Below are positions 3,692-12,209 of a stretch of 64,000 nucleotides of DNA, piece after piece. The DNA comes from Croceitalea dokdonensis DOKDO 023 (GTDB lineage Bacteria > Bacteroidota > Bacteroidia > Flavobacteriales > Flavobacteriaceae). Made by a program: the position numbers and the translations under genes. The notes beneath the pieces were generated by a model. The model was not told the origin of the DNA. It was given only the letters and a program-made list of their open reading frames with translations, and ran no database searches. Within the stretch, counting starts at the first letter, position 1. Each line of letters opens with the position of its first letter. The stretch covers positions 434,001 to 498,000 of the forward strand of contig NZ_LDJX01000002.1 of the NCBI RefSeq assembly GCF_001306415.1, in the 5' to 3' direction.

Positions 3692-3845
3692 AATTCTTAT
3701 TTTAATTATTAACAGGTTTACCTTACCTCTAAAAGGATAATGGCAAGTTTTAGCTGCCCTTACCAAGTAATTAGGACACAAAGGTGCGGCAGCTTAATCG
3801 TTTTTGGAATGTAAAAAAATGGGGAAAGCTTATAAAAATCCGATG

Positions 3846-4727
3846 TCACCTTAATTTAATTGCCTTTGCTTCACTTTTTTTAAATGCAGTAGGCGGTAGT
3901 TGGGTGTGTTTTTTAAAGAAGGCACTAAAGTTGGCGGGCTCCTTAAAACCCAGTTCATAGGCAATTTCCTTGGTGGATTGCGCTGTAAAAAAAAGTAGCC
4001 TTTTTGCCTCTGTGACAATACGCGCCTGAATGTACTCCTTTGCGGTTTTACCCATTTTAGACTTTACCGTTCTATTTAAGTGATCTGGCGTAATATGGAG
4101 TGCATCTGCATAAAACTTGGTGGAATGTTCCGCTCTAAAATTATCGTCAACAGATGTTTTAAAGGCCCTAATCAAATGATATCCTGACACATCACCACCT
4201 GGTTCAACAGGATTCATATCACAAATATTATTGCACTCTATAAGCAGTAATTTTAGATAGGCCCCAACGGACAAGAACTTCATAGCGGCCCCACTAGAAG
4301 ATAGTTCAAACATCTTGTAAGCAAAATTGGAAATGGCAAGAAACTCCGCAGCAGTTGGGATTAATGGCGGACTTTGCCCATAATTCTGAAAGAGATTTAG
4401 GCTGTCTATAAATGATAGTGGAATTGCACTTTGAACCAAAAACTGATGGGAAAACGTCATCACATATCCCACAGAAGGTTGGGTTTCCATAAGTTGGTGC
4501 ACCTGTCCTGGAGCCACAAAATACACTTGGCGTCCAGACAGTTCGTAGGTATTAAAATCTATTTTATGGAGCCCTGCTGCCTTTTGTATCACCAGAACAG
4601 TAAAATAATCATGTCTGTGCGGCTCATCTGGTTTACCCTGCCGTTCTCCATAAATAGCCTCCATTTTGGCTATGACAAAGTGGTGGTTTTCCCTTTCTGA
4701 ATTTACAGTGTGATACGTTTTAACCAT
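3846..4727 (-). CDS. AraC family transcriptional regulator
   Basis: 293 residues. The N-terminal half is a cupin-type ligand sensor (PHRHDYFTVLVIQKA, followed by APGQVHQL). The C-terminal 100 residues form the double helix-turn-helix: the second helix region reads TKEIAYELGFKEPANFSAFFKKH and ends with the usual PTAFKK. The family binds promoter DNA and responds to small molecules. Its neighbour downstream on the same strand is the pirin gene, a likely target. Upstream, 4728-4875 is a short spacer to the convergent-side phosphatase gene end. Confidence 0.9.
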   Translation of the reverse strand: MVKTYHTVNSERENHHFVIAKMEAIYGERQGKPDEPHRHDYFTVLVIQKAAGLHKIDFNTYELSGRQVYFVAPGQVHQLMETQPSVGYVMTFSHQFLVQSAIPLSFIDSLNLFQNYGQSPPLIPTAAEFLAISNFAYKMFELSSSGAAMKFLSVGAYLKLLLIECNNICDMNPVEPGGDVSGYHLIRAFKTSVDDNFRAEHSTKFYADALHITPDHLNRTVKSKMGKTAKEYIQARIVTEAKRLLFFTAQSTKEIAYELGFKEPANFSAFFKKHTQLPPTAFKKSEAKAIKLR

Positions 4728-4875
4728 AAGTATGTTTTGCTAGACGAATGTATCGTGGTTCATAGTAGTACAAACTGTCATTTAACTCATTATCCGGGTT
4801 TCAGCAATAAGGCCACAAATGTTAAGGCCCGATGCGTTTAAAAATGCTAGAACAGCTCCTACCAGAGTATGGGCA

Positions 4876-7800
4876 TCAAAACCCAAATCCTACCCCAAAA
4901 TTAAACCGAAGTCCATCTGCACTTTGGAACAAGCCAATATTTGCAGAAATGAGGTCCGCTCCACTGACAAAGAAGCCACCACCATAGGAATTGTGCCAAG
5001 TGTTGGAATCTTCGTTGGGCAACCACACCCGGCCGTAGTCAAAACCAGTAAAAACACCGGGTGTCACTGGTAAAATCCCTGTTTTTTGCTTACGAAAACT
5101 CCAGCGTAAATCGGTATTTTGAAAGAAGGCCGATTTACCGGTAAACCTTTGAAATCTAAAACCTCTTAGCCCATTGTTTGCGCCTAAACTGGCCGCCTGA
5201 TAAAATTCAAAACCATCACCAAAATTCATGTGTCCCTTTAACTTGGTGGCCAGTACCAATCTACCATTGGCTGTTAAACGATGGTCAATGGAAAGGCTGG
5301 GAACCAAAAATGCGAAAGAACGGTCCGTCTCCCTTAAATTGGTGCGGTAGCCCGCTTCCAGACGAAAGGCCATCCCCATGGTAGGGTAAGCGGCATTATC
5401 CGTGTTACTGTACTGATAAGAAGCATGTACTCCAAAAAAATCTTGCTGGGTATCCCTGGCCTGACGGGTAAAGAAGCCCTCAATAAAACGATCGGCGGTT
5501 TCTTCTACGTCATAATTTTCATAACTCGCCCCCAAGCGGACCTCTGAGCCTAAATGTCCGCGCCAAACCAAGGAAGGCGCAAATGCAATGGTCTCTATCC
5601 TTACCCGGTTAAAATCTAGCGCCAAGGGGTTTTGGTCGTCCGTATTTGCTGTATCATTGCCAAAGCCAAAAAAGTTAATGGCAAAGTTGGGACTGGTCAG
5701 TTTTGCAGAAAGTTCTAGGTTTACCCCTTCAAAAACATGCGCAAACTCCCCCTTATAACCCAAATCAAATCCGTTGGTGGCAAAATAGTAGGCCGCGTTG
5801 ACCGTGTGCTGCTGGGTAAATGGATTTTGTCTAAAACCGTTAAAGGTATAGGTATTACTGAAACCTATTCGCAAGCCGTCGTCCGGGTTAACCCCAATGG
5901 ATGGCAATAGCTGATTGGTACTGGCTTTTACTTTTAGAAATTGATACGTGTTGGTATCATAATCATTGGTTTTGTGAATTCGGCCACCGAAGGCTTCATC
6001 ATAGGTATTTTTCTTGGTCTTAAAATCATAGACATGGACGGATGCGGCCTTCTTATCAATTTTGTATACATCATTATTTTGCCCCCCGATTAAACGAACC
6101 TTAATCCCACCTTTTAAGGGAGTGGCCTCAAAGACATCATCATCGTCCAACCCATAGACCCAAATCTCCTTGGTTACCCCGGCATCAAAGGTTTTATCAA
6201 AAAAGAGGTCTTTCTTTTTACCCTCTTTTATTCTATATGCTTTTACCTGTACATTACCCTTATCGTCCCCAGAAATCACAAAATGGTCATCCTTGTCCGT
6301 TCCCGTAATGATGCCATAGGTATTGATGATATCGTAATAGGTTTTCGCCGTTTGGACCAAATTGGCTTTTCTGGCCAATAGCTTACGTTTAATATCGGTT
6401 ACCGTTTGATCACGTACCTCTTTTGGAAATTCCAATAAGGCTTTGTCAATGGCAGTTTCGGTTAAATTATCTTGGATATATTGGGCCTGGGCAATCCACT
6501 GCGCCTTTTTGGTTTGGGACAGGAGGGCCAAGTCTAGCGCATAGGTCATGGGAGAGGAATTAAAACCCCTAACATTTCTGATTTCATCGTTAAACCCCTC
6601 AAAAAGTTTTAGGCCTGCAATGGTTCTGGTGGTGAGGCCCATCAATGCCCCATCGCCCATGATGGAAAACGTCTGGTCCCGATCTCTGGGGATAGGCCTA
6701 AATACCTTCTTTCCATTTTCTTTAAACTGTGCCCAACGCCATTGATCAACATGACGGTCCCAATCTCCAATGAGCATATCAAAAAGTCGTGCTTTTACGT
6801 AAGCCTCCGCATCAACCTGGTATTCCTCATCCTTCCGCAGCTTCTTCATAAGATCATCCGTACTCTCAATTTTTTTGGTGTACCCAAAACCGGCCATATC
6901 ATGACCGTCAGAAACATGCTCCTCAATCATATAAAGCTCATCCCCAAACACATCATTAAAAGTGCCAAGGGCAGATTGCTTTGGAATGTAGTATAACTTA
7001 GGGTTGGTATGGAAAACCCCTACGGCATCAGAAAGCGTTCCGGTGACAAAAGGGGCATAGGGGTGCGCACCCGTATAAAAATCCTTTAAAATAGTTTCTG
7101 GCAAGGTACCCTCCAACTCTCCAATAATGTACTCGTTTTTAAATACCAATGCCTGTAAGTAAAGTTCCGCACTCTTCTTCAGGGCCCGCATCACAAACTG
7201 ACGCCCATCTTGGTGGACCAACCTTAGGGATTTTGACTGGTGCCCCCCTCCCTTTCTCAACGGTTGCAGACCGCCAAAGAGGGTGTCTAAATCCACTGTG
7301 GGGGCTTTTACCTTTGTTGCATAGTATTTTCTATAGCGCTGGCCCCAAACTTTTTTAAAGAATCCCGTTTTTGCCACCTCATCATCCGTATAAATAGATG
7401 CCGAAACAAAGGAGGGAAAATCCTGCTTGTCCGGAAACTCTACAGCATCCTTATCCGGAAGAAAAACCGCTGTGCTATAGGTTAACCGCTCTTTATCCTC
7501 TACACTGAAAAAATCCACTTTTGACCCACCATCTTTATAAACCGTGAGTACGGCATAACCCATTTGACCAGATGAAAACTGACTGCCGTTCAATAATCTC
7601 GTTACCCCTTTTTTTGCCCCTGCCCCACTGACAATCTGCGGTATGTTCTCTTCAACAATGTACTGCAGGGTATGCTCATGGCCAGACGCAAAGATGACCT
7701 TATCAGCATATTGTGCCAAGGTAACCAGGCGCTGCTTAAGCTCATTGTACATTTTATTGGACTGGTCTTCAAAGGTTGCTCCAGAAGTTTTTCTTAACAG

Positions 7801-8580
7801 ATTGGCTAATGATGCCAATCCGGGCAATGGGATTTTAGCGCTAGACGGATACAGATGCTGTTTTGCCGAAAACTGACCACCATGGGGGCCGTAGGTGAAC
7901 ATGGGGTGGTGCAAGGCCAAAAGGATGGTCTTGGATGCATTTTTTTTGATGATGCCCTCCAACTCCTCAAAGAACTTGTGCCTGTCTTTTATTTCACAAT
8001 CATCATTTATGGTAGGGTGCCTGTCCCAATTAACCATATACCATTCCGTGTCCAAAGCGACCACGATAATATCATCACTAATCTCAATGGTCTCAATAGG
8101 ACAGCCATCTTCCGGGAAAAAAACCTCTTTGCTGTCCAAGGCGTCTTCAATATATTTTTCCTGTCTTTTTAAGCCAACAAGCCCATTATTGTACCAATCG
8201 TGGTTACCGGGAATAAAAACTGGTTTCCCCTTAAAATCGCCCAAGGTTTTTAATTGGGCATCCAAATGGTTTTTAGCGGCCAGATAGGCCTTGGTGGAGT
8301 CTTTTTTATCGGGCAGTCCTGCGGGATAAATATTGTCCCCTAAAAAGATTGCCGTACTGTTTTCATCCGCTTTTGTTAAACGGGCCTTAAAAGCTTTTAA
8401 AGCAGGATTCAAATCGCCCATGGGTGATTTACCTGCATCACCTATCAAATAAAAAGTATGGGAAACTTTGGCGTCAATTTCAATGGTTTTGGCATTAAAA
8501 GGCTCTGCATATTTAGGTTGATAGGTGGCACAGCCCACCAGGAATGTCATCAACAGAACAGGGATGTAAAATCGTATCAT
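4876..8580 (-). CDS. Lipoprotein fusing metallophosphatase, CotH/FAM20-like kinase fold and Omp85-like barrel
   Basis: 1234 residues from ATG at 8580, chosen because it opens a lipoprotein signal (MIRFYIPVLLMTFLVGC, Cys 17); the frame stays open further upstream. Residues 45-310 are a calcineurin-like metallophosphatase: GDAG (47), GDNIYP (81), GNHDW (125), LHHPMF (223) and GHEH (300). Residues about 440-760 resemble the atypical-kinase fold of CotH/FAM20/HipA: a strand with Lys (FVMRALKK, 462), a hinge-like YMIEEHV (550), GDWDRHVDQ (605) and PIPRDRDQTF (629), the equivalents of the catalytic loop and metal-binding Asp. After an acidic linker (GLDDDDVFEA, GGQNNDVY), residues about 880-1234 form a barrel with an Omp85 L6-like motif GLRGFRFQRF and a terminal Phe. 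The domain calls for residues 45-310 and the barrel are firm; the kinase fold is my inference. Nothing after Cys17 resembles the surface-export signal, so the enzymatic part probably faces the periplasm. Confidence 0.85.
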   Translation of the reverse strand: MIRFYIPVLLMTFLVGCATYQPKYAEPFNAKTIEIDAKVSHTFYLIGDAGKSPMGDLNPALKAFKARLTKADENSTAIFLGDNIYPAGLPDKKDSTKAYLAAKNHLDAQLKTLGDFKGKPVFIPGNHDWYNNGLVGLKRQEKYIEDALDSKEVFFPEDGCPIETIEISDDIIVVALDTEWYMVNWDRHPTINDDCEIKDRHKFFEELEGIIKKNASKTILLALHHPMFTYGPHGGQFSAKQHLYPSSAKIPLPGLASLANLLRKTSGATFEDQSNKMYNELKQRLVTLAQYADKVIFASGHEHTLQYIVEENIPQIVSGAGAKKGVTRLLNGSQFSSGQMGYAVLTVYKDGGSKVDFFSVEDKERLTYSTAVFLPDKDAVEFPDKQDFPSFVSASIYTDDEVAKTGFFKKVWGQRYRKYYATKVKAPTVDLDTLFGGLQPLRKGGGHQSKSLRLVHQDGRQFVMRALKKSAELYLQALVFKNEYIIGELEGTLPETILKDFYTGAHPYAPFVTGTLSDAVGVFHTNPKLYYIPKQSALGTFNDVFGDELYMIEEHVSDGHDMAGFGYTKKIESTDDLMKKLRKDEEYQVDAEAYVKARLFDMLIGDWDRHVDQWRWAQFKENGKKVFRPIPRDRDQTFSIMGDGALMGLTTRTIAGLKLFEGFNDEIRNVRGFNSSPMTYALDLALLSQTKKAQWIAQAQYIQDNLTETAIDKALLEFPKEVRDQTVTDIKRKLLARKANLVQTAKTYYDIINTYGIITGTDKDDHFVISGDDKGNVQVKAYRIKEGKKKDLFFDKTFDAGVTKEIWVYGLDDDDVFEATPLKGGIKVRLIGGQNNDVYKIDKKAASVHVYDFKTKKNTYDEAFGGRIHKTNDYDTNTYQFLKVKASTNQLLPSIGVNPDDGLRIGFSNTYTFNGFRQNPFTQQHTVNAAYYFATNGFDLGYKGEFAHVFEGVNLELSAKLTSPNFAINFFGFGNDTANTDDQNPLALDFNRVRIETIAFAPSLVWRGHLGSEVRLGASYENYDVEETADRFIEGFFTRQARDTQQDFFGVHASYQYSNTDNAAYPTMGMAFRLEAGYRTNLRETDRSFAFLVPSLSIDHRLTANGRLVLATKLKGHMNFGDGFEFYQAASLGANNGLRGFRFQRFTGKSAFFQNTDLRWSFRKQKTGILPVTPGVFTGFDYGRVWLPNEDSNTWHNSYGGGFFVSGADLISANIGLFQSADGLRFNFGVGFGF

Positions 8581-8634
8581 TGCGGTTAGGCTTCCGTTCA
8601 AAATTTGTATTTTGGGATGCATCAATATACAACT

Positions 8635-9840
8635 ATGCCAGACATTGTTCAAAAAGCTAAAGATTTTGTTTCCGGATTATTGAAAAAAGAACTGGATCCC
8701 AATTTTTTATACCATAATCTAAGGCATACCCAACGTGTTGTAAAAAGTACCCAAGAACTGCTTTCGCATTCCACAGTGGGGGACACCGAAAAAGAAAGAA
8801 TACTACTGGCAGCATGGCTCCACGATACAGGGTACACCAAAGGCGTTAATGACCATGAAGCGCAGAGTTGCGCCATAGCGAGGGAATTTCTTGCGAACGA
8901 AGGCTATAATGAGGATGGGGTCAAGGCCGTAAATGACCTCATCATGGCGACCAAAAGGTACCATGAGCCCAAAACGCTGCCCGAAAAAATTATCCGTGAT
9001 GCCGATGCCTCCCACTTTGCCCAAAACAGCTATTGGGAAACCAGTGAATATCTTAGGGAGGAACTGGCCCTTCTGGGCATTGCCAATTATACGCCAAAAG
9101 AATGGCGGGACACCAATATCAAAATGTTCAGGAATGAGCATCAATATTATACCGATCATGCCTTGGCCAATTGGACCGATGCCAAAGAAAAAAACCTTAA
9201 AAAACTGCTAAAAGAGAAGAAGGTTGAAAAAGATATTGCCAAGAAGGAGGCTTTAAAGGCAAAATATAAAAGTGAAAGTCCAGATCGGGGTATACAGACC
9301 TTGTTTAGGGTAACCCTAAAAAACCACATTACGCTGAGCGATATTGCAGACACCAAGGCTAACATTCTTTTATCTGTCAATGCCATTATCATCTCCGTGG
9401 CATTGTCCAATCTATTGCCAAAATTAGATAACCCCTCTAATTCATACCTCATTTACCCTACGGCTATTTTTGTGATCTTTAGTGTGATATCCATGATTTT
9501 GGCCGTGCTTGCCACCAGGCCAAACGTGACCAGCGGAAAGTTTACCAAGGCAGATGTTGCCCAACAAAAAGTGAACCTGTTATTTTTTGGCAACTTTCAT
9601 CAAATGAGTTTAAAAGAGTATGAATGGGCCATTCAAGAATTGGTAAAAGACAAGGATTATATCTATTCCTCATTGACCAAGGACCTTTATTTTTTGGGAT
9701 TGGTCTTAAACAGGAAATACAACATCTTACGATGGACGTACACCATTTTTATCATCGGCATCATCATTTCTGTTCTTGCCTTTGGAATATCTTTTCACCT
9801 AGAAGAAGTGGCCAAGGCCAAGCTTAACCAAGTGGGCTAA
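8635..9840 (+). CDS. HD-domain phosphohydrolase fused to Pycsar-effector (PycTM/DUF5706) membrane domain
   Basis: 401 residues from ATG at 8635; a TTG at 8605 would add ten residues and is less likely. Residues 1-190 are an HD hydrolase: NLRHTQRVV (first His, 31), AAWLHDTGY (HD, 63-64), a later His in MATKRYH (110) and IIRDADASHF (Asp 122). A charged helical linker (190-220) leads to the PycTM module: LSDIADTKANILLSVNAIIISVAL (about 235-260), a second membrane helix (YLIYPTAIFVIFSVISMIL), an amphipathic stretch and a third helix near the C-terminus (TIFIIGIIISVLAFGISF). PycTM domains are the membrane-impairing effectors of the pyrimidine-cyclase (Pycsar) anti-phage system. No pyrimidine cyclase gene is next to it. 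It is transcribed divergently from the phosphatase-barrel gene (54-base gap) and its stop overlaps that of the GAF gene. Confidence 0.88.
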   Translation: MPDIVQKAKDFVSGLLKKELDPNFLYHNLRHTQRVVKSTQELLSHSTVGDTEKERILLAAWLHDTGYTKGVNDHEAQSCAIAREFLANEGYNEDGVKAVNDLIMATKRYHEPKTLPEKIIRDADASHFAQNSYWETSEYLREELALLGIANYTPKEWRDTNIKMFRNEHQYYTDHALANWTDAKEKNLKKLLKEKKVEKDIAKKEALKAKYKSESPDRGIQTLFRVTLKNHITLSDIADTKANILLSVNAIIISVALSNLLPKLDNPSNSYLIYPTAIFVIFSVISMILAVLATRPNVTSGKFTKADVAQQKVNLLFFGNFHQMSLKEYEWAIQELVKDKDYIYSSLTKDLYFLGLVLNRKYNILRWTYTIFIIGIIISVLAFGISFHLEEVAKAKLNQVG

Positions 9841-12209
9841 GCCTTTAACTCTTCCATTAAATCATCATAAGTGTAGGTCTTTTTTGACTCTTCATCGGTC
9901 TTGTAGAGTATCTCTGCCCGGATGGCCTTAAGACCGGTTACCCCTTGGAGCCCCTCTAACTCTACTATTTCAATTTTATTGGTAAAGTAGCCTTTGGATT
10001 TTAAAAACTTGACAAAACGCAAGTATTCTTTTTCATCCTTTTTTTGGGAGTAGACAATGGATAGTTTCCCCTTTTGCGTCAACCGTTCATTGGTTCCCTT
10101 GATAAAGGATTTATCGATCCGTTTTTTGATCACTTCATAGCGGGCATTATAGGTACCGTCAACATCAAACTTTTTTTCGTCCATTCTAAACCGGATGGCC
10201 AAGGGCGTGCTATAGACCAATAGCAAGGAGGCCACATCCAAGGGTACGGATAAATTGGGCTTTAAATGGTAATGGGCATTTTCCATCTCTACCATCACCT
10301 GTAATTGCCATAACCGCAGGTTGTTGAGATATAGTTGATTAAACTCCCGGTCATGGGCAATGGCGCTCCCTATGTACATATTATGCTCAATACCATCAGT
10401 TTTGTAACGCTCAAAGTAATGTGGGAACATTTCTTGCGCATGGGCCTGCTTTTTATCCAAAAGCGCGGCCAATGTCATATTGATGTTCATGACACTTTCA
10501 TCATAATTTTTGCGATGATCGTAATAGGACTCCGTGCTTTTATCCACTTTGGCCTGATACTTTTCAATCAATTCCTTTAGTCCTTTGTCCTCCCTTTTTA
10601 AATGGTGGAACACTGGATTGATTTCTTCTTGAACAAAGTCGAAAATGGTTTGTTCACTATTGGTGTACAAGGTATCCTTAATCTCTTCTAAATGGTTATT
10701 GACCCTAAAGATCAACTCTTCGTAAACGGGAAGTTTAAGTCCTTGGTTGGCCGCGTTCAAAACTTGGCTGATTTCGGAAAGCTGAATCATTAAATCTCGC
10801 TGTATGGCAATATTCCGCTGTTTGGAAGAGTCTTTAATGTCTACTTGGCCATATAACGGATAAACGTCCTTAAACACAATTTCATTAAAAGAAGGCTTTT
10901 TGCCTGCTAATTCCAGCGTCATAAAATGCTTGGCCTCTTCTTGAAACTTCCAATAGACAGATGAATGTACCGTGGTACATTCATTCTGGATAATGGCATC
11001 TATTAAATTCTGTTCTTCCTCAATGGACCTGAGTACCGCAGAAACAATATAGGGCATTACATCTACCAGTTTATTGGCGTTGATGCTATTAAGTTCATTG
11101 ATTTCACTGGATACCAGTTCTAAAACGCCCAGCAGATTCCCCTCATCGGCAATTGGGGCTAAGATGGCGCTTTTTATCCCCTGTTCATGCAAATTTTTAT
11201 AAGGTTGGCCTCCTTCTGATTTTTCAAAATATTTTGGCACGTTGGAGATGGCGATATAGTGGCTTTCTTCCAATAACTTATGGTAAGAATGATCGCAGAG
11301 CATAGCATCACAAGATGCGTTCTCCGTATCATTAAGAATAAAGCTTTTGATGCCCTTGCCATGTATTTTTAAAAAACGATTGGTGTTTGGGTCATAGCCG
11401 GCGAAGCCAACAGAAATATTTTTTAAATTGAACAGTGAGCGGAACGTATCCTGAAAGTTATCCATAAAGTCCTTGCTGCCGCGCTTATTGCTACCAATCA
11501 ACGTAGACTTGATTTCCGATATGGAATGTTCGGCGGTGACATCGAACATATTTGATATCACAAAGCCTTTGGATACAAAACTTTGTGGTGGAATCTTCTC
11601 CTTCCAGAGGTCAAGATTGTCAAAATTTTCCAAAAGTTCGTCCACATCGGCCTGAGTGATTTCTTTTGCTTTTTCCGTTGGAATCAGTTCTATAAAATCT
11701 GCGTTGTACAAAATACGGTAGTGGCGCATTACTCCTTTGGCATCCGGGATATCGTAAAATAACGGGCGCTTAAAATCCAACATAAACCCGTAATAAAACC
11801 CTAGAATTACGGTACTCTGCATAATGTAAAACAAATCCTCCGGCATGTTGCGCATTTCTAGCTCAAAACCATCACCAGCAGCTTCTAAAATGCGCTGAAA
11901 CCTAGTGGATGAGTTAAAAATTACGTTGGCGTACGGTATGGATGCAGCTTTAATTTCGTTTTGGGTCAGCACTGGTGCAAAAACATCCGCCAAAATAATA
12001 TTGATGACCTCTTTTAGTTTGTCCAGGATCGTAAGATCATCAAAACCGTCACGCAACTCTGGGTATGGGGCCGCAGTATCTAAAATAAAACGGGCGCGCT
12101 CAGCCAAAAAGGCATCACCACTTTGCAGCTGCCGGTCGTAATGGCTTAAAAGCTTGTTAAAGCTTACTTTCTGAATTAACGGGGAATCACCCGGCTCTAT
12201 GTTTAGCAT
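9837..12209 (-). CDS. GAF-domain protein, Bacteroidota-type
   Basis: 790 residues, no signal peptide or membrane segment, so cytoplasmic. A helical N-terminal region (1-240) precedes a GAF domain (roughly 240-390) with the segments YHKLLEESHYIAISNV and GIKSAILAPIADEGNLLGVLEL. The rest is long and helical with coiled-coil character (EKYQAKVDKSTESYYDHRKNY) and a C-terminal mixed region (KLSIVYSQKKDEKEYLRFVKF). GAF domains bind cyclic nucleotides or other small ligands; no output domain (kinase, cyclase, HTH) is recognisable. The stop codon overlaps the HD-PycTM stop by 4 bases, tail to tail. Confidence 0.8.
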   Translation of the reverse strand: MLNIEPGDSPLIQKVSFNKLLSHYDRQLQSGDAFLAERARFILDTAAPYPELRDGFDDLTILDKLKEVINIILADVFAPVLTQNEIKAASIPYANVIFNSSTRFQRILEAAGDGFELEMRNMPEDLFYIMQSTVILGFYYGFMLDFKRPLFYDIPDAKGVMRHYRILYNADFIELIPTEKAKEITQADVDELLENFDNLDLWKEKIPPQSFVSKGFVISNMFDVTAEHSISEIKSTLIGSNKRGSKDFMDNFQDTFRSLFNLKNISVGFAGYDPNTNRFLKIHGKGIKSFILNDTENASCDAMLCDHSYHKLLEESHYIAISNVPKYFEKSEGGQPYKNLHEQGIKSAILAPIADEGNLLGVLELVSSEINELNSINANKLVDVMPYIVSAVLRSIEEEQNLIDAIIQNECTTVHSSVYWKFQEEAKHFMTLELAGKKPSFNEIVFKDVYPLYGQVDIKDSSKQRNIAIQRDLMIQLSEISQVLNAANQGLKLPVYEELIFRVNNHLEEIKDTLYTNSEQTIFDFVQEEINPVFHHLKREDKGLKELIEKYQAKVDKSTESYYDHRKNYDESVMNINMTLAALLDKKQAHAQEMFPHYFERYKTDGIEHNMYIGSAIAHDREFNQLYLNNLRLWQLQVMVEMENAHYHLKPNLSVPLDVASLLLVYSTPLAIRFRMDEKKFDVDGTYNARYEVIKKRIDKSFIKGTNERLTQKGKLSIVYSQKKDEKEYLRFVKFLKSKGYFTNKIEIVELEGLQGVTGLKAIRAEILYKTDEESKKTYTYDDLMEELKA

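Follow-up and report, generated by a model that had tools for sequence, protein, structure and literature searches.

A predicted outer-membrane lipoprotein of Croceitalea dokdonensis joining a purple-acid-phosphatase-like domain, an atypical kinase fold and an Omp85-type barrel

The stretch of DNA analysed here (the window: 64,000 nucleotides of Croceitalea dokdonensis DOKDO 023, Flavobacteriaceae, contig NZ_LDJX01000002.1, positions 434,001 to 498,000) encodes at its positions 4876 to 8580 a protein in which a lipobox, a metallophosphatase domain, a middle domain of kinase-like fold and a C-terminal barrel are fused, a combination put forward in a first-pass annotation of the bare letters and now confirmed at the level of sequence and model. 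The three folds and the intact catalytic residues are shown by prediction and conservation. The conserved residues speak for a middle domain that transfers phosphoryl groups and a first domain that acts by hydrolysis; from them and from the folds we infer that phosphate may be added by the one and removed by the other. Overall, with chances that we place near even, the product is read as an outer-membrane lipoprotein carrying a purple acid phosphatase (PAP)-type phosphatase and a CotH/PI4KII/HipA-type kinase-fold domain on an Omp85 barrel devoid of POTRA domains, which would serve for phosphoryl transfer on the inward-facing side of the outer membrane. The gene and its modules are arranged in the window as follows.

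4876..8580, minus strand: whole gene, 1234 amino acids plus stop, an open reading frame read from ATG
8530..8580, minus strand: lipoprotein signal peptide with lipobox LVGC and Cys17, read from the sequence
7429..8475, minus strand: purple-acid-phosphatase-like domain, residues 36-384 (PF00149, fold, ligand conservation)
6316..7311, minus strand: predicted atypical-kinase-fold domain, residues 424-755, with Lys469, Asp608 and Asp633/635 (model, fold matches, conservation)
5926..6315, minus strand: all-beta linker with Asp/Asn/Gly-rich turns, residues 756-885 (secondary structure of the models)
4879..5925, minus strand: 16-strand Omp85-type barrel, residues 886-1234, with GLRGFRF at 1137-1143 (model, NF047779)

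The kinase-fold domain

The middle domain was modelled with AlphaFold2 (residues 385-905, alignment of 81 sequences) with a predicted local distance difference test (pLDDT) score of 84.3 and a predicted template modelling score (pTM) of 0.86. In the Foldseek search of this model, HipA (4pu3, E 4.5e-6) and CtkA (3akk, E 2.0e-5) stood at the top, Rv3197 and COQ8A followed among the first matches listed, and Fam20C and PI4KII came lower, with other protein kinases in between. The corresponding template modelling (TM) scores were low (0.14-0.31 by query length, among the matches listed), which we suppose to reflect a differing placement of the lobes and the presence of the linker inside the query. 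With the second aligner, VIA, on whose Z values the fold assignment relies, residues ~424-755 matched PI4KII-beta (Z 15.2), CotH (5jda; Z 14.4, 253 residues aligned, 4.1 Å, 15% identity), CtkA (Z 13.4), HipA (Z 11.2) and the Golgi casein kinase Fam20C (4kqb; Z 10.7). With VIA, the best Z of a query lacking a clear match is typically 7 to 8, and mostly helical models reach 14 without true relatives; the middle domain, unlike such helical models prone to inflated Z, is of mixed alpha-beta structure. The model of residues 424-755 is thus a two-lobed fold of the atypical protein-kinase type, with PI4KII, CotH, CtkA, HipA and Fam20C as near structural matches, as had been anticipated from motif spacing when comparison with CotH and FAM20C was proposed.

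This relation is hardly visible at the level of family models. Scans of the middle region against Pfam, NCBIfam and PDB sequences gave no convincing match, one PDB search with the kinase domain returned chance-level matches only (E above 1, at residues 729-774) and another none, and no convincing Pfam family emerged from 81 members of the kinase domain (33 families with E no higher than 10, the best at E 0.0061 among the matches listed). The CotH family PF08757 was absent from the families reported for the window protein at E up to 10; its single match in the C. dokdonensis genome is a different gene, on another contig (C12). Pfam holds a Fam20 sequence model, and the Fam20 family was absent among the three Pfam matches of the window protein.

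The Lys, DRH-loop and metal-Asp motifs that had been noticed by eye are present (FVMRALKK with Lys469, GDWDRHVDQ with Asp608, and PIPRDRDQTF with Asp633 and Asp635), and Lys469, Asp608 and Asp635 are conserved beyond chance. Together, these three residues are kept in 80/80 close homologues and 73/82 diverse sequences (the window protein counted among the latter); taken singly, the diverse kinase domains keep Lys469 in 79 cases, Asp608 in 78, Asp633 in 75, Asp635 in 74, Gln613 in 78 and Trp614 in all 82. When sorted by architecture, the catalytic triple is found in 49/49 sequences with a phosphatase (the window's included), in 4/4 kinase domains standing alone and in 20/29 of those joined to a barrel only. 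These counts leave out kinase domains with a match E above 1e-20 or fewer than 300 profile positions, namely three kinase-plus-barrel frames (the first copy of L124, L151 and L164) and the truncated L170. Kinase-plus-barrel homologues with one or more of the catalytic residues lost, which are possible pseudokinases, are found at L114, L155, L156, L157, L158, L161, L162, L163 and L165.

A profile of the kinase domain compared with one of 30 CotH proteins scored 41.0 (P 4.6e-4), pairing GDWDRH with GSWDDY and IPRDRD with IPYDYD; 100 column shuffles of the CotH profile gave at most 21.5, its reversed form 17.7 and an unrelated barrel profile 12.8. The domain thus shares with CotH (PF08757; 5jda) both the fold and a catalytic segment that aligns by profile, but it differs in its loop (DWDRHxDQWxW), in lacking PF08757 and in being fused to a phosphatase and a barrel. 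With PI4KII, HipA, CtkA and Fam20C it shares the fold and a Lys and two Asp at the expected places, but identity is 8-15% among the matches listed, Gln stands for the Asn of DRHxxN, and the predicted context is the outer membrane.

Phosphatase, barrel and the wider family

The phosphatase motifs claimed for the first domain were all located (GDAG 47-50, GDNIY 81-85, GNHD 125-128, HHP 224-226 and GHEH 300-303), and PF00149 matches residues 43-240 in the Pfam scan (E 3.1e-7, 31.5 bits against a cut-off of 21.5). In the full-length model (residues 36-1234, alignment of 80 sequences; pLDDT 78.5, pTM 0.75) the best fold match of this domain is pig purple acid phosphatase (5uq6, Z 25.7), and plant phytases are also found among its matches, at Z about 20. 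The metal ligands of purple acid phosphatases, Tyr included, correspond to Asp48, Asp82, Tyr85, Asn126, His224/225, His301 and His303, and any one of these is retained by between 55 and 58 of the 58 diverse sequences compared; a PDB search with the full-length profile gave short, weak matches to the same enzymes (E 0.061 at best). The first domain is accordingly modelled as a purple acid phosphatase that has the fold and the metal ligands of the mammalian enzyme, Tyr85 among them, but only 18% identity to 5uq6, and that is part of a fusion.

The C-terminal part is modelled as a barrel of 16 strands (model positions 851 to 1197, with some loops at pLDDT under 50) and matches BamA (Z 20.4) and the Flavobacterium johnsoniae BamA-BamP entry (Z 18.7). 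The Omp85 model NF047779 fits best at residues 1051-1218 (E 1e-15, 58.1 bits against a curated cut-off of 200) and PF03865 scores 18.4 bits against a cut-off of 22.7; PF01103 is not reported for the window protein, and it is passed (49.1 against a cut-off of 24) by the separate barrel gene of a relative, L131, described below. The Omp85 similarity in sequence is thus genuine, though it stays below the curated cut-off, and GLRGFRF is in place at residues 1137-1143. The Omp85-type barrel, as a predicted structure, and the lipid anchor (lipobox LVGC, Cys17) of the first-pass annotation both stand. Of the two outcomes that the annotation named as fatal to its reading, a middle fold unrelated to protein kinases and a missing C-terminal barrel, neither was obtained. 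Its comparison with type Vd autotransporters fares less well. In that type, a patatin passenger is combined with POTRA domains, as in PlpD, an enzyme domain followed by an Omp85 barrel. The window protein likewise joins enzyme domains to an Omp85 barrel, but it differs from PlpD in that patatin and POTRA are absent and a lipid anchor is present, so that the likeness is weak. No POTRA family was found in the Pfam scan, and the segment preceding the barrel is all-beta by prediction, with no POTRA in the model, which also distinguishes this barrel from those of BamA and TamA. The linker at residues 756-885, for which the window protein has no Pfam match, is in our own reading beta-roll-like.

Some part of the protein was matched in 140/296 genomes sampled across Bacteroidota. 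Within its own family most matches span the full length, and the C. dokdonensis genome itself holds a second full-length copy (38% identity) on another contig (L002; G000:C10:240989-244663). Many of the distant matches begin only near residue 400 and run to the C-terminus, in proteins ~850-960 residues long; others are confined to the phosphatase. In the loci fetched, a non-random set of which 80 were the closest matches, 129 frames carry all three modules, 32 the kinase domain and barrel, five the kinase domain alone, nine the phosphatase alone and five the barrel alone. Two genomes of one genus (L131 and L152) encode the modules as three adjacent genes, kinase first, then phosphatase and barrel, all on one strand, and at L170 kinase and phosphatase genes lie side by side; such split but adjacent genes count in favour of a link between the modules. 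A rough lipobox pattern, which misses some lipoproteins and may count three ordinary signal peptides, was found in 111/129 three-module frames, 6/9 phosphatase-only, 2/5 kinase-only and 3/32 kinase-plus-barrel frames. The anchor, being frequent with the phosphatase and rare in kinase-plus-barrel proteins, thus tends to travel with the phosphatase. CotH genes were also seen no more than a few kb from kinase-plus-barrel homologues at L119, L122 and L123 (the genomes of L119 and L123 have a confirmed PF08757 match; at L122 the assignment is by similarity).

Gene neighbourhood and polyphosphate kinase

Three of the neighbours in the window that recur around relatives of the gene are the following.

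8620-9840: divergent neighbour, an HD plus PycTM (Pycsar effector) protein, PF18967 E 3.5e-37
2091-2957: phytase-like or SdiA-regulated type propeller lipoprotein, PF13449 E 0.0012, below the cut-off
35-1186: protein of the PAP2 family that weakly matches vanadium chloroperoxidase

Homologues of window neighbours were counted in the 80 closest loci (HD-PycTM 79, propeller lipoprotein 76, PAP2 76, GAF 74, second metallophosphatase 69, GyrI-like 64) and neighbour families in 60 diverse loci with short flanks (HD family 22, propeller 17, class III cyclase 11, the polyphosphate kinase PPK1 10, SixA-like histidine phosphatase 9), the latter by single-linkage clustering at E 1e-8, with names given partly by eye and confirmed by Pfam for PPK1, HD-PycTM, the propeller and CotH. 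That the HD-PycTM neighbour is kept in 79/80 close and 22/60 diverse loci suggests a role in a common pathway and not in phage defence alone. Related propellers also recur beside distant family members.

The proximity to PPK1 was followed in 60 of the 76 genera with any match, one genome each, picked by eye and excluding phosphatase-only, barrel-only and weak-match genera; 57/60 have PPK1 at all. A member of the family lies within 15 kb of PPK1 in 21/60 genera and within 5 kb in 14, against 1/60 and 0 for RecA as a control, and about 1 would be expected by chance within 20 kb on a rough estimate. For the kinase-bearing gene the count is 20/60, the remaining genus (G152) being positive through a phosphatase-only gene. 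The choice was not blind, as a nearby PPK1 had already been seen in 11/21 positives (G070, G140, G224, G239, G253, G269, G271, G294, G026, G089 and G286), and the 21 genera span 11 families, with six in a single one (f23). Shared descent inflates the count, so that the link to phosphate or polyphosphate metabolism is read as real but indirect; given how often relatives lie near a polyphosphate kinase, a connection of the system with phosphate or polyphosphate status is probable.

A lipoprotein of ~560 amino acids with HipA/PI-kinase-like motifs recognized by eye (YLIKFD, NDTDRRDAN, QDFG) also adjoins an Omp85-like barrel in three genomes of one genus (L167 at 951-2654 and 9939-11633, L168 at 3722-5404, L169 at 4019-5692). 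A phosphatase gene is adjacent in 3/4 of these cases, and the family was found in 8/296 genomes of three genera. It was not retained as a kinase: Pfam HipA_C gave only E 0.25, profile comparison showed no similarity to the kinase domain of the window protein (P 0.13) or to CotH (P 0.6), and a PDB profile search led to designed Armadillo proteins (best E 0.0013). It may represent a trio of the same kind that arose independently.

Possible functions and relation to known proteins

Both ends of Omp85 barrels face the periplasm, and the enzymes are therefore most likely periplasmic, held by the lipid and the barrel at once. In the mechanism that we propose, both enzyme domains would lie beneath the barrel, the kinase domain would pass a phosphoryl or similar group on to a protein, lipid or glycan of the envelope that sits at the barrel or moves through it, and the phosphatase would remove that group or clear a phosphorylated by-product. 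A single substrate, handled by the barrel, might serve both enzymes, and polyphosphate may be the phosphoryl donor. A stronger version, in which kinase and opposing phosphatase on one Omp85 scaffold would form a reversible outer-membrane phosphorylation machine that places phosphate marks on envelope molecules and takes them off again, at the expense of polyphosphate or another non-ATP source, is considered unlikely.

Several observations weigh against a phosphoryl-transfer module. Adenosine triphosphate (ATP) is not expected in the periplasm, and the PPK1 of C. dokdonensis itself sits on another contig (G000:C16). In the catalytic loop DRHxxN, a motif of HipA and phosphatidylinositol kinases, the Asn is replaced by Gln613 in 78/82 sequences, the window loop being DRHVDQ. 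Nine of the 29 kinase-plus-barrel homologues without phosphatase lost at least one of Lys469, Asp608 and Asp635, a hint that the fold may also be of use without catalytic activity, and in three further such frames, left out of that count, only the C-terminal part of the domain is matched. As to the profile match with CotH, the comparison tool itself assigned it a probability of 33%, and an unrelated phosphatase profile scored 24.1 over 10 columns against the kinase-domain profile.

The altered loop would also suit a kinase fold turned to other transferase chemistry, such as AMPylation or glutamylation, instead of phosphorylation. SelO is a kinase fold with non-phosphorylating chemistry, SidJ offers another precedent, and the Foldseek matches include atypical kinases of the COQ8A type. 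Against it, most sequences retain the beta-3 Lys and the two candidate metal-site Asp, and the nearest folds with solved structures belong to phosphorylating enzymes, so that this alternative appears quite improbable. Improbable as well is a type Vd-like or SLAM-like device, in which the barrel would export its own N-terminal enzymes to the surface to act on outside substrates. The enzyme-barrel layout shared with PlpD and the lipid anchor would fit it, but POTRA domains are not seen before the barrel, where an all-beta region is predicted, and ATP would be scarce outside too. Moreover, acidic residues following the lipoprotein Cys act as a surface-export signal, and no such signal follows Cys17 in the window protein (ATYQPKYAEPF). 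Translocation has been raised as an option for Omp85 proteins with PF00149 by the authors who described them (PMC4104836).

Phosphate scavenging, in which the PAP domain would free phosphate at the outer membrane from organic phosphates and the kinase fold would only bind nucleotide, inositol phosphate or polyphosphate for sensing or feeding, is a possible reading, if a fairly unlikely one. The plant phytases among the PAP fold matches agree with it, as do the phytase-like propeller gene nearby (76/80 close loci) and the PPK1 and SdiA-type propellers that recur in distant loci. In F. johnsoniae, phosphate depletion induces a polyphosphate-kinase-like gene and a propeller-type lipoprotein, matched here by description (PMC8115612). 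Yet 'calcineurin' and 'metallophosph' occur 0 times in the accessible text of that study, where the single pf00149 table entry seen is given as periplasmic, and a mere binding role sits poorly with a catalytic triple kept in every one of the 49 phosphatase-bearing sequences compared and with the many relatives that have the kinase domain and barrel but no phosphatase.

The layout itself, thought to be new in the first-pass annotation, is so only in part. An Omp85 subgroup, 'Metallo', with PF00149 joined to the barrel and termed metalloprotease was catalogued in 2014 (Heinz and Lithgow 2014; PMC4104836), and it is probably the same kind of protein, matched by description. The available text of that paper contains the word 'kinase' 0 times, whereas here PF00149 is a calcineurin-like phosphoesterase and a kinase fold lies between it and the barrel; no description of an Omp85 barrel that carries a kinase fold was found among the open-licence papers listed for the terms used, most of which were screened by title and the opening of the abstract. 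A metallophosphoesterase of Riemerella was not equated with the window protein, as a review counts it among the type IX effectors. What appears to be new, as judged from models and comparisons, is thus the predicted kinase fold, the split into three genes in one genus, the relatives made of kinase domain and barrel, and the proximity to PPK1.

With these results the 'Metallo' Omp85 group gains a missing domain, and a change of its label from protease to phosphatase suggests itself. How bacteria phosphorylate molecules outside their cytoplasm is little understood, ATP being thought to be missing there, and a conserved kinase fold predicted together with a phosphatase and an outer-membrane barrel, in a family that is matched, whole or in part, in close to half of the genomes sampled from the phylum, provides a defined protein with which that question may be addressed.

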